DNA of 47,084 nt from a bacterium endosymbiont of Bathymodiolus sp. 5 South (GTDB taxonomy: Bacteria > Pseudomonadota > Gammaproteobacteria > PS1 > Pseudothioglobaceae). Shown here in pieces: positions 5,498 to 35,577 of the stretch. The notes below the pieces were generated by a model, which was given only the letters and a program-made list of their open reading frames with translations, was not told the origin of the DNA and searched no databases. The DNA lies in assembly GCF_900128535.1 (NCBI RefSeq), contig NZ_FQTR01000003.1, positions 1-47,084 on the forward strand, in the 5' to 3' direction. How positions within the stretch are numbered: the stretch's first letter is position 1; every line of letters starts with the position of its first letter. Position numbers and translations under genes: made by a program.

Positions 5498-6574
5498 ATG
5501 GCTAAAGAATTGGAAAAACTAAGAGTTGAAATTGATGCGTTGGACAAGAAGATTCAGTCATTAATTGGTAGTAGAGCCGAACTTGCATCAGCAGTTGCAG
5601 AAGTTAAAAAGACTGCAGAATATAATAGTAGTTTTTACCGCCCAGAGCGTGAAGCGCAAGTGTTGCGCACCATTATTGAGCGCAATGATAACTTGGTTAA
5701 GGACAAAGACATGGCGCATATCTTTCGTGAGATTATGTCCGCTTGTCTTGCACTTGAGCAAGGTATCAATGTCGCTTACCTCGGTCCTGAAGGCACTTTT
5801 ACGCAAGCAGCTGCCCTTAAGCATTTCGGGCATGCGGTATCGACGCTAGATTGTGGTAGTGTTGATGAAATTTTCCATGAAGTAGAAAAAGGCAATGCAA
5901 ATTATGGCGTTGTGCCAATTGAAAATTCGTCTAATGGTGTGATTGGGGCAACGGTTGATATGCTTTATTCTCAAGATTTAAAGATTTGTGGCGAGGTTGA
6001 AGTTTTAATCCATCATCAATTAATGATGGCAGACCAATCTAAGGATATTGCGGTAATTTACGCACATCAGCAAGCACTTGAACAATGCCAACGCTGGTTA
6101 AAAAATCATTATCCAAAAGCACAACTGAAGTCTGTGGCTTCAAATGCTCTAGCAGCTCGACTTGTTAAAGACGAGCCAAATGCTGCAGCGATTGCATCAG
6201 AAGTAGCACTTGGTTTGTATGGTTTAGAGCGTGTTGCTAAAAACATTGAAGACAAAACTGGCAATGTCACACGCTTTTTGGTGCTTGGCAAAGAAGAAGT
6301 TGCACCTTCAGGTAAAGACAAAACCTCTTTATTGGTCGTTGCCAAACACGAAGCAGGGGCATTATTTGATTTGTTATCACCTTTTAAAGATCAAAATATA
6401 AATATACTGCAACTTGCACGCCATCCAATGCCAGGTATAAAGTGGGAATACCTATTCCTCATTGATATTGAGGGTCATCAGCAACAGGCGCATGTGCACA
6501 GCGCCTTGGTGAAGATTGCCAAAAAAGTGCTGAAGGTAGATATCTTAGGTTCTTATCCTGTCACAGTCCTGTAA
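5498..6574 (+). CDS. pheA: Bifunctional chorismate mutase / prephenate dehydratase
   Basis: Makes phenylpyruvate from chorismate via prephenate. Residues 1-90 are the AroQ-type mutase (EIDALDKKIQSLI, YRPEREAQVL, EIMSACLALEQ). The dehydratase follows from VAYLGPEGTFTQAAA (~93), with the typical VPIENSSNG. The C-terminal ACT domain runs from ~275. In that domain the usual ESRP Phe-binding motif reads ARHP (LQLARHPMPGIKWEY), and the GALV-type loop reads GALF, so feedback control may differ. At 358 aa the length is normal. pheA is normally followed directly by hisC; here 6.3 kb of AT-rich defence-like genes intervene. Confidence 0.95.
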   Translation: MAKELEKLRVEIDALDKKIQSLIGSRAELASAVAEVKKTAEYNSSFYRPEREAQVLRTIIERNDNLVKDKDMAHIFREIMSACLALEQGINVAYLGPEGTFTQAAALKHFGHAVSTLDCGSVDEIFHEVEKGNANYGVVPIENSSNGVIGATVDMLYSQDLKICGEVEVLIHHQLMMADQSKDIAVIYAHQQALEQCQRWLKNHYPKAQLKSVASNALAARLVKDEPNAAAIASEVALGLYGLERVAKNIEDKTGNVTRFLVLGKEEVAPSGKDKTSLLVVAKHEAGALFDLLSPFKDQNINILQLARHPMPGIKWEYLFLIDIEGHQQQAHVHSALVKIAKKVLKVDILGSYPVTVL

Positions 6575-6614
6575 TTTTGCAATATGTAGTGTTTATGACT
6601 TTAAACTATAAATT

Positions 6615-7811
6615 ATGAACACTTTTAATGACATTAAAGAATTAGTGTCAGCTCTAAAGAGGGAAGAAAAATTAATCTCCCAGATGTTTGTAAAAAGAAA
6701 ATCTCTTAATTACAAGTTGAGTTACGCTTTAGAATTAGTTGATGATGACGAGGATAGAATTAATTTTCTTTTACAAAGGGCTGTTATTAGAGAGAATGGC
6801 GGGCTTCTTGAAATTGACGATCAATTTATTGAATTCTTTGAACAAGTACTTGATGTTAATGAAGAAATTAACCTTTCATACATTAATGAAAATATCAAAA
6901 GTATTAATGAAAATATAAATTACTATTTCAATGAGAATAATGAAAATAAAAAATACAGCTATCTTAAATTTATAAAAAAGACTTTCAGAAAAATGGGAGT
7001 TATTACATTTAGAAGTGTAGTTGATTTAAGACGAAATATAGAAAACACCTTTAAGAATGAATCAAATTACAAAAACAAACATCTGAAATTAAAAAACCTT
7101 GATGAGAAAAGAACTATTGTTACCGATTTAATCAAACAAACTTTATTATTAATCAATGATGAGGAGTTAACTTTTTTTAAGACAGCAACAGATGAAGAAT
7201 TAAATCAAGTCATTGTAGACTTAAAACACAGTTTAAGTGAATGCTCACATAATTTAATTGAAATAGAGAAGCAAATAATTGATTATCTAAATCAAATAAA
7301 ACATCAAGGAAAGTTTTTAGAAAAACTACGAAGATTAAAATATTTAAAAGATCATTTTCTAATTGAAGGCGAAACAGATATTAAACAAATTCTTACCAAA
7401 AAAAATCAAGTAATTTTTGAAGTTCGTGTAGCCGAACCTTTAAATTTATCAATAGATTTTTTATGTGAAAATGAGAATGCTTTTTCGAGTATTAAAAAAA
7501 TAGCAAAAAAAAATTTAGATCGAATAAACTTTAAGCCATTATTAGCTGAAAGTATTTCTGATGAGCTTTTAGAAAACAGTGTTGAAGAAGAGACAATGAT
7601 AAATTTAGAGGAAGTTAAGAATCGTTTTATTGCAACAAGCGACAATTTATTCAATTTTATTGTTCGCTATGATTTCTTAAAAGAGGTTGATTTTAACGAG
7701 CGGGTAACCATATACTGTCAAGTAGCCTCCCAATACGAATCAGAATTGAACATTGAAAATGAATTTCAAATTGATAATGACATTGAATACACCTTAATTT
7801 ATCCAAAATAG
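6615..7811 (+). CDS. jetA: JetA-like kleisin subunit of a Wadjet-type SMC defence complex
   Basis: Proposed kleisin (MukF-like) subunit of a condensin-type plasmid-restriction complex. No catalytic motif is expected. What is visible is a charged, helical 398-aa protein with a winged-helix-like start (RINFLLQRAVIRENGGLLEIDDQ) and long coiled-coil-prone helices between ~100 and 260. The assignment rests mainly on its place as first gene of a four-gene block with a MukE-like, a MukB/SMC-like and a Toprim protein, the JetABCD order. It is shorter than the roughly 480-residue JetA proteins of well-known Wadjet types and I cannot place it in a subtype. Base composition is far more AT-rich than pheA. 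No Shine-Dalgarno or convincing promoter is seen in the 40 bases after pheA. Confidence 0.6.
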   Translation: MNTFNDIKELVSALKREEKLISQMFVKRKSLNYKLSYALELVDDDEDRINFLLQRAVIRENGGLLEIDDQFIEFFEQVLDVNEEINLSYINENIKSINENINYYFNENNENKKYSYLKFIKKTFRKMGVITFRSVVDLRRNIENTFKNESNYKNKHLKLKNLDEKRTIVTDLIKQTLLLINDEELTFFKTATDEELNQVIVDLKHSLSECSHNLIEIEKQIIDYLNQIKHQGKFLEKLRRLKYLKDHFLIEGETDIKQILTKKNQVIFEVRVAEPLNLSIDFLCENENAFSSIKKIAKKNLDRINFKPLLAESISDELLENSVEEETMINLEEVKNRFIATSDNLFNFIVRYDFLKEVDFNERVTIYCQVASQYESELNIENEFQIDNDIEYTLIYPK

Positions 7812-16195: not shown

Positions 16196-16522
16196 TTAGT
16201 AGCCGCCTTTGCGCTTAGTTTCAGGTAGCCCTGCAATTTTCCCTGCTTGTTTAGCGGGGCCTTTTGGGAAGAGTGTGTAAAGTTCTTTGGTGGTTAGTTT
16301 ACCTTCCCAGTCGCCTTTCAAACCTTTAACCATATTGCGCTCATTAGGCTGGTTGGCGTTGTTATTAATGTATTCATCACGCAAGAAGTTGATGAGTTTA
16401 AGACTTTCATCTGTTAAATTAACCCCTTCTTCTTCTGCAAGTTCTGCAGCGATACTCTCGTCCCATTGGTTGAGGTCAACTAAGTAACCATGTCCGTCTC
16501 TTTCTAAATCTGCTAATGCCAT
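16196..16522 (-). CDS. DsrC/TusE-family protein without cysteines
   Basis: Small 108-aa protein of the DsrC/TusE sulfur-relay fold: N-terminal DGHGYLVDLNQWDESIAAELA and C-terminal LFPKGPAKQAGKIAGLP are classic. Genuine DsrC carries sulfur on a penultimate C-terminal Cys, with a second Cys about ten residues before. Here the tail is GLPETKRKGGY and the protein has no Cys at all, so it cannot act as a persulfide or trisulfide carrier. Cys-less DsrC homologues are known in sulfur oxidisers and sulfate reducers and have been proposed to be regulatory. The start is ATG 16522 behind GGAG (16529-16532); an upstream in-frame TTG at 16534 is less likely. It converges on aroA. Confidence 0.9.
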   Translation of the reverse strand: MALADLERDGHGYLVDLNQWDESIAAELAEEEGVNLTDESLKLINFLRDEYINNNANQPNERNMVKGLKGDWEGKLTTKELYTLFPKGPAKQAGKIAGLPETKRKGGY

Positions 16523-16590
16523 CTTGTTCTCCAAAACAATAAAAGAAATTATTATATAATAAACAACTTTATCTTTTCCTTATTTTTTAT

Positions 16591-21552: not shown

Positions 21553-21572
21553 TTTAAACACTTTTGTATACT

Positions 21573-21723
21573 GAGACCTTTGCATAAATATGAATAATCA
21601 TCAAAATGCCATTTTTCACCAACTTGACAATTTTATGAACTTTGCTATGACTGTATTTCATAAAATCACCAAGTCGGCAAAACTTGTCATTTTGCTAATC
21701 ATCCCTACTTATGCAAAAGTCTC
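21573..21723. mobile_element. MITE-like element 1 (151 bp)
   Basis: Non-coding element bounded by inverted repeats GAGACCTTTGCATAA (left) and its near-perfect complement TTATGCAAAAGTCTC-like end (right, 1-2 mismatches in ~15). It is flanked on both sides by ATACT (21568-21572 and 21724-21728), a plausible target duplication. The interior is itself an imperfect inverted repeat. The ends match the second element at 35416 and the left end of the transposase-bearing element at 46900, so it is probably a non-autonomous derivative of that IS. Confidence 0.8.
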
Positions 21724-21740
21724 ATACTAATACTAATTAT

Positions 21741-21817
21741 GCGCTCGTAGCTCAATTGGATAGAGTCTTGGCCTCCGAAGCCAAATGTTGGGTGTTCAAA
21801 TCACCTCGAGCGCACCA
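21741..21817 (+). tRNA. tRNA-Arg (anticodon CCG)
   Basis: A 77-nt cloverleaf: acceptor arms GCGCTCG and CGAGCGC pair fully, D-arm GCTCAATTGGATAGAGT, anticodon stem TTGGC/GCCAA around loop CTCCGAA (anticodon CCG, reading CGG), T-loop GTTCAAATC, and an encoded 3' CCA at 21815-21817. The lgt start codon follows only 6 bases later, so the tRNA and lgt are probably transcribed together and separated by processing. Confidence 0.95.
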
Positions 21818-23774: not shown

Positions 23775-24806
23775 TTACTTCCAAATATCAACTGTAATCC
23801 CTTGTTCTCTTAACTTGTCAGACTTATGCTCAATATAGCGCTGAAAGTTTGACTGAGTTTTGTATGCACCTGTCAAAACATAATCCATAATGCTATGCAA
23901 GTGATACTGCTTGAAATAAGCATCTTTGCGAATAATTTCATGACCAGCCTTGTCAAAGAAAACAATGGCAGGTTTGTAGGTAAGTTTTAACGCCTCATAC
24001 CAATCTTTGGCGGTGGTGCGCTGGCCTGATGGGGTAATCAATTTTTCATTAGACAGAGCATCCAAACGCACGACTTGCATTTGTTGTAAGTAGTCTTGTG
24101 TTTGCTTTAATGGCATTAATTGAGTATGAAAAAAATCACATTGCGTGCAGTTTGGTTCTTCAAAAAAGACAGCTAAAACTTTTTGTGCTGGTCGGTTTTT
24201 GCTCCGCATTAATAAATGCGGAGGTGAGGCAAAGATTGTATGCGAGTTAAGCTTACCAGTCTTGTTTTTCTTTAACTTGTTAAGGTAGTCGGCGTAAGAT
24301 TCTGTGAGATAGACTTGGCTGGCAATATAATCTAGCGTGGTGTGCATTTTATCAATAGATTGATAACCATTGAGTCTGAGTAGAGTTCTCCCCTGAGGAT
24401 TTAAAAAAACAAGGGTAGGGGTAAACTGGATTTTCATATGTGCTGAAAATTCCTTTTCAGTAAAATCTTTACCTGTCCAATCGCTCAAAGTTGTATCGCC
24501 CCACATATTGATTTCAATCACATCAAAATCTTTTTGTAATTTGGCAACTAATTTCTTATCATGAAAGTTATCTTTGACTAATTTAGCGCAGTAAGGGCAG
24601 CCATTTTGATGAAAATAAATCATGACGTGACGACCTTTGTCATAGGCTTCTTCTAAGTCTTCAGAAAAATCCATAAAGGTTGTTTTGAACCAGTCAGGCA
24701 AAATATCAATGGTTTCTGCACCTAAAAAATCCCCTTGTTTGAGCACTTCTTGAGCAACAGACATGGATGAAAGACATAAAGAAAATATTAGAAATACAAT
24801 GCGCAT
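23775..24806 (-). CDS. Periplasmic double-thioredoxin protein, SoxW-like
   Basis: A 343-aa exported protein: signal peptide RIVFLIFSLCLSSMSVAQ, then two thioredoxin-fold domains. The first has CPYC at 70-73 (FHQNGCPYCAKL) and the cis-Pro segment KIQFTPTLVF. The second has CTQC near residue 218 (FFEEPNCTQCDFF) and LTYKPAIVFF. Such thioredoxins act in reductive thiol chemistry in the periplasm; in sulfur oxidisers SoxW-type proteins reduce Sox intermediates. No sox genes are in the window, so the SoxW link is inference from fold and organism type. Confidence 0.82.
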   Translation of the reverse strand: MRIVFLIFSLCLSSMSVAQEVLKQGDFLGAETIDILPDWFKTTFMDFSEDLEEAYDKGRHVMIYFHQNGCPYCAKLVKDNFHDKKLVAKLQKDFDVIEINMWGDTTLSDWTGKDFTEKEFSAHMKIQFTPTLVFLNPQGRTLLRLNGYQSIDKMHTTLDYIASQVYLTESYADYLNKLKKNKTGKLNSHTIFASPPHLLMRSKNRPAQKVLAVFFEEPNCTQCDFFHTQLMPLKQTQDYLQQMQVVRLDALSNEKLITPSGQRTTAKDWYEALKLTYKPAIVFFDKAGHEIIRKDAYFKQYHLHSIMDYVLTGAYKTQSNFQRYIEHKSDKLREQGITVDIWK

Positions 24807-24896: not shown

Positions 24897-25568
24897 CTAG
24901 ACTGCATTAACACTTTCAATGCCTTTTTGTGGCAAAAATAGTCCACAACCTAGTAGGCGATGCTTGCCAATGCCTATTTCTTGGAGTTTGACAGATTCTG
25001 CTTTTCTGAGGTCGGCTATCATCAAAGAGCGTGTATGAATGGCACCTTCTGGCATTGATATTTTGCGTTTTAAACCTGCCATCATCTTTTTAGGTTGAAT
25101 ACCTAGTGCTTGAAGTTGTGTGAATGAGGTTTGTAAAAAGGTTTCTTCACTGGCATTTTTGTCACACATAATATGTTTGGCAAAAACGATTTGCATATCA
25201 CTCATCAGTTTTGACTTTAACGCCTTGACTATGTCAATCTGATAGTCGCCTAAATTTAGTGTTTTTCCAACCAAAACCTCCGCCTCAGCTAACTTTTCTT
25301 GAGGCATTCGAATATTAAGTTTAGAGCGTTTAGAAGGGTAGTAAAAGCCAGATTCATGGTTTTGTTCCCAGCCATTGCCATCAGCCACACTAATATCAAA
25401 CACACCAGCATTGGCTTCTTTTAGCCAAGGTAGGTGTTTGAGTAATGCCTGAGACAGAAAATAAGCATGGTCAATGGGTAAAATTTTGGCGTGAATAGTA
25501 AACACAGCATCTTGAATCGTCTCAGGAAGCGTAAAATGCTCTTCTTTAATATCTTCTTGCCAAAACAT
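24897..25568 (-). CDS. Stand-alone Cas6/Cmx6-like protein
   Basis: A 223-aa protein resembling the Cas6/Cmx6 family (type I-MYXAN-named CRISPR RNA endonucleases). The best evidence is the C-terminal glycine-rich loop GIGKHRLLGCGLFLPQKGI, the RNA-binding feature of Cas6 RAMP proteins. The N-terminal half (IHAKILPIDHAYFLSQALL; SGFYYPSKRSKLNIRMP) fits a first ferredoxin-like fold. No cas genes or repeat array exist in the window, so it is an orphan here. It may process other RNAs or an array elsewhere. It is divergent from rnc. Confidence 0.72.
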   Translation of the reverse strand: MFWQEDIKEEHFTLPETIQDAVFTIHAKILPIDHAYFLSQALLKHLPWLKEANAGVFDISVADGNGWEQNHESGFYYPSKRSKLNIRMPQEKLAEAEVLVGKTLNLGDYQIDIVKALKSKLMSDMQIVFAKHIMCDKNASEETFLQTSFTQLQALGIQPKKMMAGLKRKISMPEGAIHTRSLMIADLRKAESVKLQEIGIGKHRLLGCGLFLPQKGIESVNAV

Positions 25569-25622: not shown

Positions 25623-26297
25623 ATGAACGAATTACAGAAAAAAATTAATTATCAATTTAAAGACATTGCTTTATTGAGGCAGGCATTGACGCATCGTAGC
25701 ATGGGCAAGGGTAATAATGAGCGTCTTGAGTTCTTGGGCGATAGCGTATTGGGTGTGGTGGTTTCTCGTGAGTTGTATAAGCGTTTTCCAAGTATTGCTG
25801 AGGGTAAGCTGTCTCGATTTAAGTCTTATGTGGTTAGAGGACAAACGCTATCGTTGATTGCAACCAAACTGGAGTTATCAAATTTATTAATTTTGGGTTC
25901 GGGCGAGTTGAAAAGTGGCGGACACAATCGTAAATCTATTCAATCTGATGCAGTAGAGGCTATCTTGGGTGCTATTTTCTTGGAAGCAGATTTTGATATT
26001 GTTAATCGGGTAATTCTAGATTTGTTTAAAGAATACATAGAGAGCATTAATCCAAATGACACTCTAAAAGATTTTAAAACGCAGTTGCAAGAACGCTTGC
26101 AAAAGTTTGGGCAAACACTACCACAGTATGACCTAATCAAAACTGTAGGCAAAGACCATAATGCAAAATTTACGATTAATTGCTTTTTAAAAGACCAATC
26201 AATACAAGTTCAACAAGAAGCCAAAAGCATCAAGAGAGCAGAACAAATGTGTGCTGAGGTTTTGCTAGAAAAATTAAAAGAGCAAAAAGCCTCATGA
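25623..26297 (+). CDS. rnc: Ribonuclease III
   Basis: Double-strand RNA endonuclease for rRNA and mRNA processing. The nuclease signature NERLEFLGDSVLG puts the catalytic acidic residues at E36 and D40 with the second acid pair in DAVEAILGAIFLE (~111-118). The C-terminal dsRNA-binding domain runs from ~150 (DFKTQLQERLQKFG ... AEQMCAEVLLEKL). At 224 aa it is full length. It overlaps era by 4 bases and opens the rnc-era-recO-pdxJ-acpS unit. Confidence 0.95.
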   Translation: MNELQKKINYQFKDIALLRQALTHRSMGKGNNERLEFLGDSVLGVVVSRELYKRFPSIAEGKLSRFKSYVVRGQTLSLIATKLELSNLLILGSGELKSGGHNRKSIQSDAVEAILGAIFLEADFDIVNRVILDLFKEYIESINPNDTLKDFKTQLQERLQKFGQTLPQYDLIKTVGKDHNAKFTINCFLKDQSIQVQQEAKSIKRAEQMCAEVLLEKLKEQKAS

Positions 26298-35415: not shown

Positions 35416-35577
35416 GAGATCTTTGCATAAATAGGAATAACCATCAAAAACCCACTTTTCACCCACTTGGCGATTTTTTTAAATCCAGCCTTAGCTCTGC
35501 TAGGACAAGCTTTAAAAAAATCGCCAAGTAGGTGAAAAGTGGGTTTTTCCAATCCTCTCTATTTATACAAAGGTCTC
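35416..35577. mobile_element. MITE-like element 2 (about 162 bp) with long internal palindrome
   Basis: Ends are GAGATCTTTGCATAAATA (left) and TATTTATACAAAGGTCTC (right), an imperfect inverted repeat. The interior (about 35446-35547) is a near-perfect inverted repeat with arms of ~37 bases (AAACCCACTTTTCACC ... GGTGAAAAGTGGGTTT) around a short loop, so the element could form one long hairpin. The sequence is related to MITE 1 at 21573 (same terminal motif, similar CATCAAAA interior start). No open reading frame is inside. Confidence 0.82.

Follow-up and report, generated by a model that had tools for sequence, protein, structure and literature searches.

The window, by which we mean the whole 47,084-nt stretch of DNA analysed here, encodes a Cas6 homologue that is a long-kept companion of the genes for reverse dissimilatory sulfite reductase (Dsr) and stands outside CRISPR immunity. 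In gammaproteobacteria the presence of this protein is almost certainly tied to sulfur oxidation through reverse Dsr, and outside the window's own family, which we read as Thioglobaceae from its named members, its gene lies in an operon divergent from dsrAB, a context missed by the initial annotation of this DNA. We consider it probable that the protein is a Cas6-type endoribonuclease working outside CRISPR as an accessory of reverse Dsr, possibly by way of a stem-loop in the dsrAB leader. The features of the window on which the analysis rests are collected in Table 1.

Table 1. Features of the window relevant to the dsr-linked Cas6 homologue
Feature	Position	Strand	Evidence or remark
dsr-linked Cas6 homologue, 223 aa	24897..25568	-	PF09559, TIGR02807, AF2 model, dN/dS
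Codon of His34, catalytic-type histidine, start of helix 1	25467..25469	-	Homologue alignment
Glycine-rich loop, residues 199-213 (GIGKHRLLGCGLFLP)	24930..24974	-	Alignment; near C terminus
Cysteine-free DsrC/TusE paralogue, ends KGGY	16196..16522	-	PF04358 3.9e-29; TIGR03342 above cut-off
rnc (RNase III), divergent neighbour of cas6	25623..26297	+	Synteny
Protein with two thioredoxin-like stretches	23775..24806	-	PF13098 1.2e-30, two stretches

Identity, fold and conserved residues of the Cas6 homologue

The open reading frame is intact, and profile searches bear out the initial description of its product as a Cas6/Cmx6-like protein: it matches the Pfam Cas6 family PF09559 (E 4e-45, 154.6 bits against a cut-off of 26.7), the NCBIfam equivalog TIGR02807 cas6_cmx6 (105.6 bits, above the cut-off of 98.85) and the PADLOC Cas6 models (E 7e-56). 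The structural comparison that had been proposed gave the same answer. An AlphaFold (AF2) model built from 71 homologues, with a mean pLDDT of 89.9, aligned best, among PDB structures, with Cas6 from the type I-B CAST (8fcu_B, TM 0.78). At E <= 0.001 there were 35 PDB matches, each a Cas6-type chain or a Cascade entry, which assigns the model to the Cas6 fold. The product is thus confirmed as a true Cas6 homologue. Its gene is under purifying selection, with dN/dS values of about 0.08-0.25 against relatives.

The residue at position 34 is His in 88 of the 89 homologues, being Asn in the remaining one, and it is also His in all six cyanobacterial PF09559 Cas6 proteins compared; His34 is regarded as the putative catalytic residue. 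The CAST Cas6, which is the closest solved structure, carries Asn at this position, so that some members may be able to do without the histidine. The glycine-rich RNA-binding loop that had been recognized from the sequence is real: its glycines G199, G201, G207 and G209 are almost invariant across 71-89 homologues and, in the alignment denoted A1, G207 and G209 are invariant, while G199, G201, C208, F211 and P213 are conserved at 90% or more. This loop is present in CRISPR-type Cas6 proteins as well. The residues of the dsr-type proteins that are invariant in A1 include W3, P47, G66, W67, R81, R87, Q196, G207 and G209; three further members, drawn from the phylum sample described below, keep the histidine and the loop and differ at some of these positions. 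His34, Arg87, Gln196 and the glycine loop are common to the dsr-type proteins and the six cyanobacterial homologues, whereas the invariant W3 and W67 and the near-invariant E141, K161 and K215 are found in the dsr-type proteins only.

In a phylogenetic tree, the 89 dsr-type rows form one side of a branch with 100/99 support, opposite the six cyanobacterial homologues, five of which lie beside cas3 (the three phylum-sample members were left out of this tree). Long branches meet at this point, so that a single origin of the dsr-type Cas6, while likely, is not proven. The direction of the takeover, from CRISPR to dsr, is assumed.

Independence from CRISPR

As had been stated initially, no CRISPR-like array was found by scanning the window and no cas gene other than cas6 was seen among the listed window ORFs. 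The type I-MYXAN cas3/cas8/cas7/cas5 operon is not found beside cas6, in contrast to most cyanobacterial Cas6 loci.

Type II CRISPR systems rely on tracrRNA and RNase III, not on Cas6. The host genome (G000, 427 contigs) contains three cas1-bearing CRISPR loci, and all are type II: one is II-B, with Cas9/Csx12, cas4 and a large array, and two have other type II Cas9s. The CRISPR arrays at the examined loci adjoin type II genes. A complete CRISPR locus elsewhere lacking its own cas6, which the initial annotation regarded as evidence against a stand-alone protein, is therefore formally present three times, but in a type that uses no Cas6. Searches for cas3 gave nothing above the cut-off in the host genome, and in Thioglobaceae only G019, itself without cas6, exceeded it (each of the 58 genomes searched as relatives gave cas3_core matches, mostly weak helicase cross-matches, with five over the cut-off). 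These 58 genomes include 34 that keep cas6, and cas1 is missing from most of the relatives that do so. In the closed 1.03-Mb genome of one cas6-bearing relative (G033), no CRISPR-like array was found when the whole genome was scanned in 52 overlapping pieces, nor any match to the seed Cas1, Cas2, Cas3, Cas5, Cas7 or Cas9 proteins; there was one Cas8 match, at E 0.74. The array scan used on G033, applied as a control to three known arrays, detected two, the missed one having two repeats in the examined stretch. Since the cas1 loci of the host are all of a type needing no Cas6, and since the closed relative keeps cas6 while having neither an array nor cas1, the gene is not a CRISPR leftover, and its earlier description as a stand-alone, stably kept Cas6 relative stands, no CRISPR partner having been found.

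Two loci deserve mention in their own right. In the type II-B locus of the host (L034, on G000:C63), an ORF at 5921-6619, between cas9 and cas1, encodes 232 aa with a Fic-like motif (FYDGNKRTGR) and has no NCBIfam match. A PF09559-type Cas6 is also encoded on a plasmid of Gloeobacter morelensis (L129, 5974-6765). No cas gene is listed near it, the neighbours including instead a PAPS-reductase-family protein and a cupin protein, and it is possibly another CRISPR-free Cas6.

Co-occurrence of cas6 with dsrA

The distribution of cas6 follows that of dsrA closely. Among 369 gammaproteobacterial species, cas6 was found in 123 and dsrA, with our own presence threshold of E below 1e-40, in 122; both genes occur in 116 species, cas6 only in 7, dsrA only in 6 and neither in 240 (phi 0.92). 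The corresponding Fisher p of 9e-79 overstates independence, as the species are related, and is not to be taken literally. The 13 exceptions include several assemblies that are incomplete or in fragments; the six dsrA-bearing gammaproteobacteria without a cas6 match, one of which (G236) is 99% complete, count against the function proposed below. A sample of 299 genomes across the phylum yielded cas6 in four, all of them Gammaproteobacteria and all carrying dsrA. In three of these the two genes are divergent and adjacent, and the fourth is the window's own genome. No cas6 was detected in any of the 33 dsrA-bearing genomes of other classes in this sample.

Within Thioglobaceae, cas6 is missing from all five genomes without a convincing dsrA (G013, G019, G023, G030 and G034, four of genus g3 and one of g9). 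Three genomes have dsrA and no cas6 match (G025, G028 and G032, with completeness of 87, 86 and 93%, respectively), and two have cas6 with dsrA in fragmentary form only (G015 and G016). Named carriers of cas6 include the Bathymodiolus symbionts, Ruthia, Vesicomyosocius, Parabeggiatoa, Cocleimonas, Sedimenticola and Thiohalocapsa.

Genomic neighbourhood of cas6

Outside Thioglobaceae, 94 loci were compared, several of them too short to show all genes. In 72, dsrA is divergent from cas6. Upstream, on the cas6 strand, lie a TauD-like dioxygenase (66/94), an ORF of about 65 aa, orf65 (83/94), and a protein of about 240 aa (34/94), and downstream of cas6 there is a DsrC paralogue in 73 loci. The small ORF is conserved (for instance, L092 5231-5428) and has no match over the cut-off in Pfam or NCBIfam. 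The DsrC paralogues adjacent to cas6 lack both C-terminal cysteines in 98 of 99 cases, whereas the DsrC proteins of the dsr operon possess both in 52 of 52. The window contains, 8.4 kb from cas6, a cysteine-free paralogue of this kind that likely corresponds to the gene immediately following cas6 in other families; the start of this paralogue was placed at the ATG at 16522 in preference to the TTG at 16534, located by the ribosome-binding site.

In the window, the neighbours of cas6 are rnc/era and the thioredoxin-like gene, in agreement with the earlier remark that it sits beside RNase III among housekeeping genes. Conservation of this arrangement in relatives, which had been suggested as a check, is complete: cas6 adjoins rnc, in divergent orientation, in 45 of 45 Thioglobaceae loci (some species being counted in two collections), and in other families rnc is not a neighbour. 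In the window's own family, then, cas6 has moved beside rnc and its physical linkage to dsrAB has been lost. The thioredoxin-like gene lies on the same strand, directly downstream of cas6, in most Thioglobaceae loci, the exceptions being L038 and L053. Elsewhere in the window, a tRNA-Arg(CCG) identified by ARAGORN at 21741-21817 overlaps the start of the ORF listed at 21785, whose true start is probably further down.

Viral contigs of SUP05 have been described to carry a dsrC variant without the second C-terminal cysteine, beside viral genes such as a 2OG-Fe(II) oxygenase (PMC4164917), a pair reminiscent of the DsrC-like and TauD-like genes near cas6. No dsr-type cas6 carried by phage was found in viral contigs or phage collections.

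A hairpin in the dsrA leader as candidate RNA

The dsrA leader of Thioglobaceae contains a stem-loop between GTTCAY and TTTATTAAA, just past a -10-like TATAAT. In an alignment of 27 distinct leaders (excluding L219, from G033, in which the stem is offset by one base, and L243, which has a different anchor), 96.3% of the cells of the 7-bp stem are paired compared to 83.7% after shuffling, and double-change cells number 30 as opposed to 9.7 in shuffles, with none of 500 shuffles as high. Relatedness inflates these shuffle comparisons but is kept in the control in which the stem is slid along the alignment, and there the signal drops steeply. A model of the hairpin, R1, matches the dsrA leader in 28 of the 58 genomes, with one extra weak match (G010); having been built from Thioglobaceae leaders, it is expected to match there, and the informative result is the near absence of further matches. 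No Rfam family matched in the dsr stretch. The folding energies of the leaders are only modestly better than those of shuffled sequences (mean z -1.1 outside Thioglobaceae and -0.86 within), and for this reason we rely on covariation and not on energy.

Outside Thioglobaceae, neither the sequence nor the position of the leader hairpin is constant; in two small leader clusters from these other families, hairpins of different sequence occur at similar places, which is only suggestive. Genome G032, already mentioned as having dsrA and no cas6 match at 93% completeness, still has the leader hairpin, and this counts against its being the substrate. The hairpin could also serve a leader-binding factor other than Cas6. 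On balance, the dsrA leader hairpin is a plausible, albeit tentative, candidate for a Cas6 substrate. Other candidates were discarded: no hairpin beside cas6 itself is conserved in Thioglobaceae, and hairpins between dsrA and dsrB or between dsrC and dsrM, although strong in many genomes, are absent from several that carry cas6 and could not be universal substrates. Upstream of the putative dsrA promoter of Thioglobaceae (for example, in L212) there is a conserved DNA stretch of the type CCCCTAAGGGATAG, perhaps an operator.

Proposed function and alternative explanations

Taking these observations together, we infer that Cas6 would act on RNA in vivo by binding the leader stem-loop of dsrAB mRNA, which it would probably cut through His34, and that binding or cutting would set the stability or the translation of this message, with the cysteine-free DsrC paralogue as a likely partner or sensor. 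The components of this proposal differ in strength. An RNA-acting role of the dsr-linked Cas6 is quite likely, and the initial idea that the target is a non-CRISPR RNA hairpin is probably correct, the dsrA leader hairpin being the candidate. The scheme in its entirety, that is, a CRISPR-type ribonuclease taken over as a dedicated post-transcriptional regulator of dsr that cuts the leader hairpin and has the cysteine-free DsrC as sensor, is rather doubtful. One alternative is that the protein is a regulator or chaperone that binds dsr messages and does not cut them. Such binding would likewise account for the operon linkage, it agrees with the retention of the fold and the glycine loop, and the CAST Cas6 does without the histidine; however, the maintenance of His34 in 88 of 89 highly diverged members is more than binding should need, and we regard this explanation as unlikely. 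The linkage between cas6 and dsr could also reflect a non-RNA role, in which the two-domain RNA-binding fold is reused at the protein level in sulfur trafficking or Dsr assembly, for instance to bind the DsrC paralogue. The neighbouring genes encode protein-level factors (the DsrC paralogue and the TauD-like dioxygenase), and the dsr-specific W3 and W67 could make a protein contact, but what is shared with the CRISPR members is the RNA-handling signature (His34, the glycine loop, Arg87 and Gln196), which makes such a role improbable.

Two further explanations fare worse in view of the distribution of the gene, which follows dsrA. The family name, the fold, the catalytic-type residues and the existence of CRISPR arrays in the host would fit an enzyme that processes crRNA in trans for CRISPR loci. 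Nevertheless, the exclusively type II nature of the cas1-bearing host loci, the absence of cas1 from most cas6-bearing relatives, the restriction of above-cut-off cas3 in the family to the cas6-less G019 and the lack of arrays in the closed G033 render it very improbable. The initial annotation had speculated that the protein might process transcripts of the palindromic MITEs of the window. MITE-like palindromes do exist at 21572-21724 and 35446-35548, and several relatives have diverged copies; even so, blastn found no match to them in the complete genome of G033, which has cas6, and this suggestion can practically be dismissed.

Significance and comparison with known systems

No report of a link between Cas6 and dsrA or reverse Dsr, or of Cas6 as a dsr gene, was found in the open-access literature, and an earlier mention elsewhere is possible. 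In these genomes, the type I-MYXAN label that automatic annotation gives to Cas6 is misleading. If the proposed role is correct, a widespread gene, carried by roughly one third of the sampled gammaproteobacterial species and now annotated as CRISPR, would join core sulfur metabolism, in vent symbionts as in other sulfur oxidizers. The case would further show that a CRISPR ribonuclease can be recruited on its own to regulate energy metabolism, yielding a metabolic control system made out of a CRISPR component, and the regulation of the reverse Dsr operon would be testable through one gene and one RNA element.

The dsr-type Cas6 belongs to the same family as the Cas6 of type I-MYXAN/I-B systems (PF09559, TIGR02807) and of the type I-B CAST (PDB 8fcj and 8fcu), with which it shares the fold (TM 0.78) and the glycine loop; the helix 1 histidine is also common to these proteins, except for that of the CAST. 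It differs from these proteins in having no cas operon, in being encoded by a single chromosomal copy, in its tie to dsrAB and in its own invariant residues W3 and W67 and near-invariant E141, K161 and K215. As in the CreTA addiction modules (PMC9458426) and other exaptations (PMC8730458, PMC12669027), a CRISPR part is found in another use, but here the part is a single Cas6, tied to core energy metabolism, for which neither an effector complex nor repeats were found. Finally, cas6 resembles the dsr accessory genes (dsrEFH, dsrL, dsrN, dsrR and dsrS) in that it tracks reverse Dsr and often adjoins it, although what it encodes is an RNA-processing fold and not a sulfur carrier or a redox protein.
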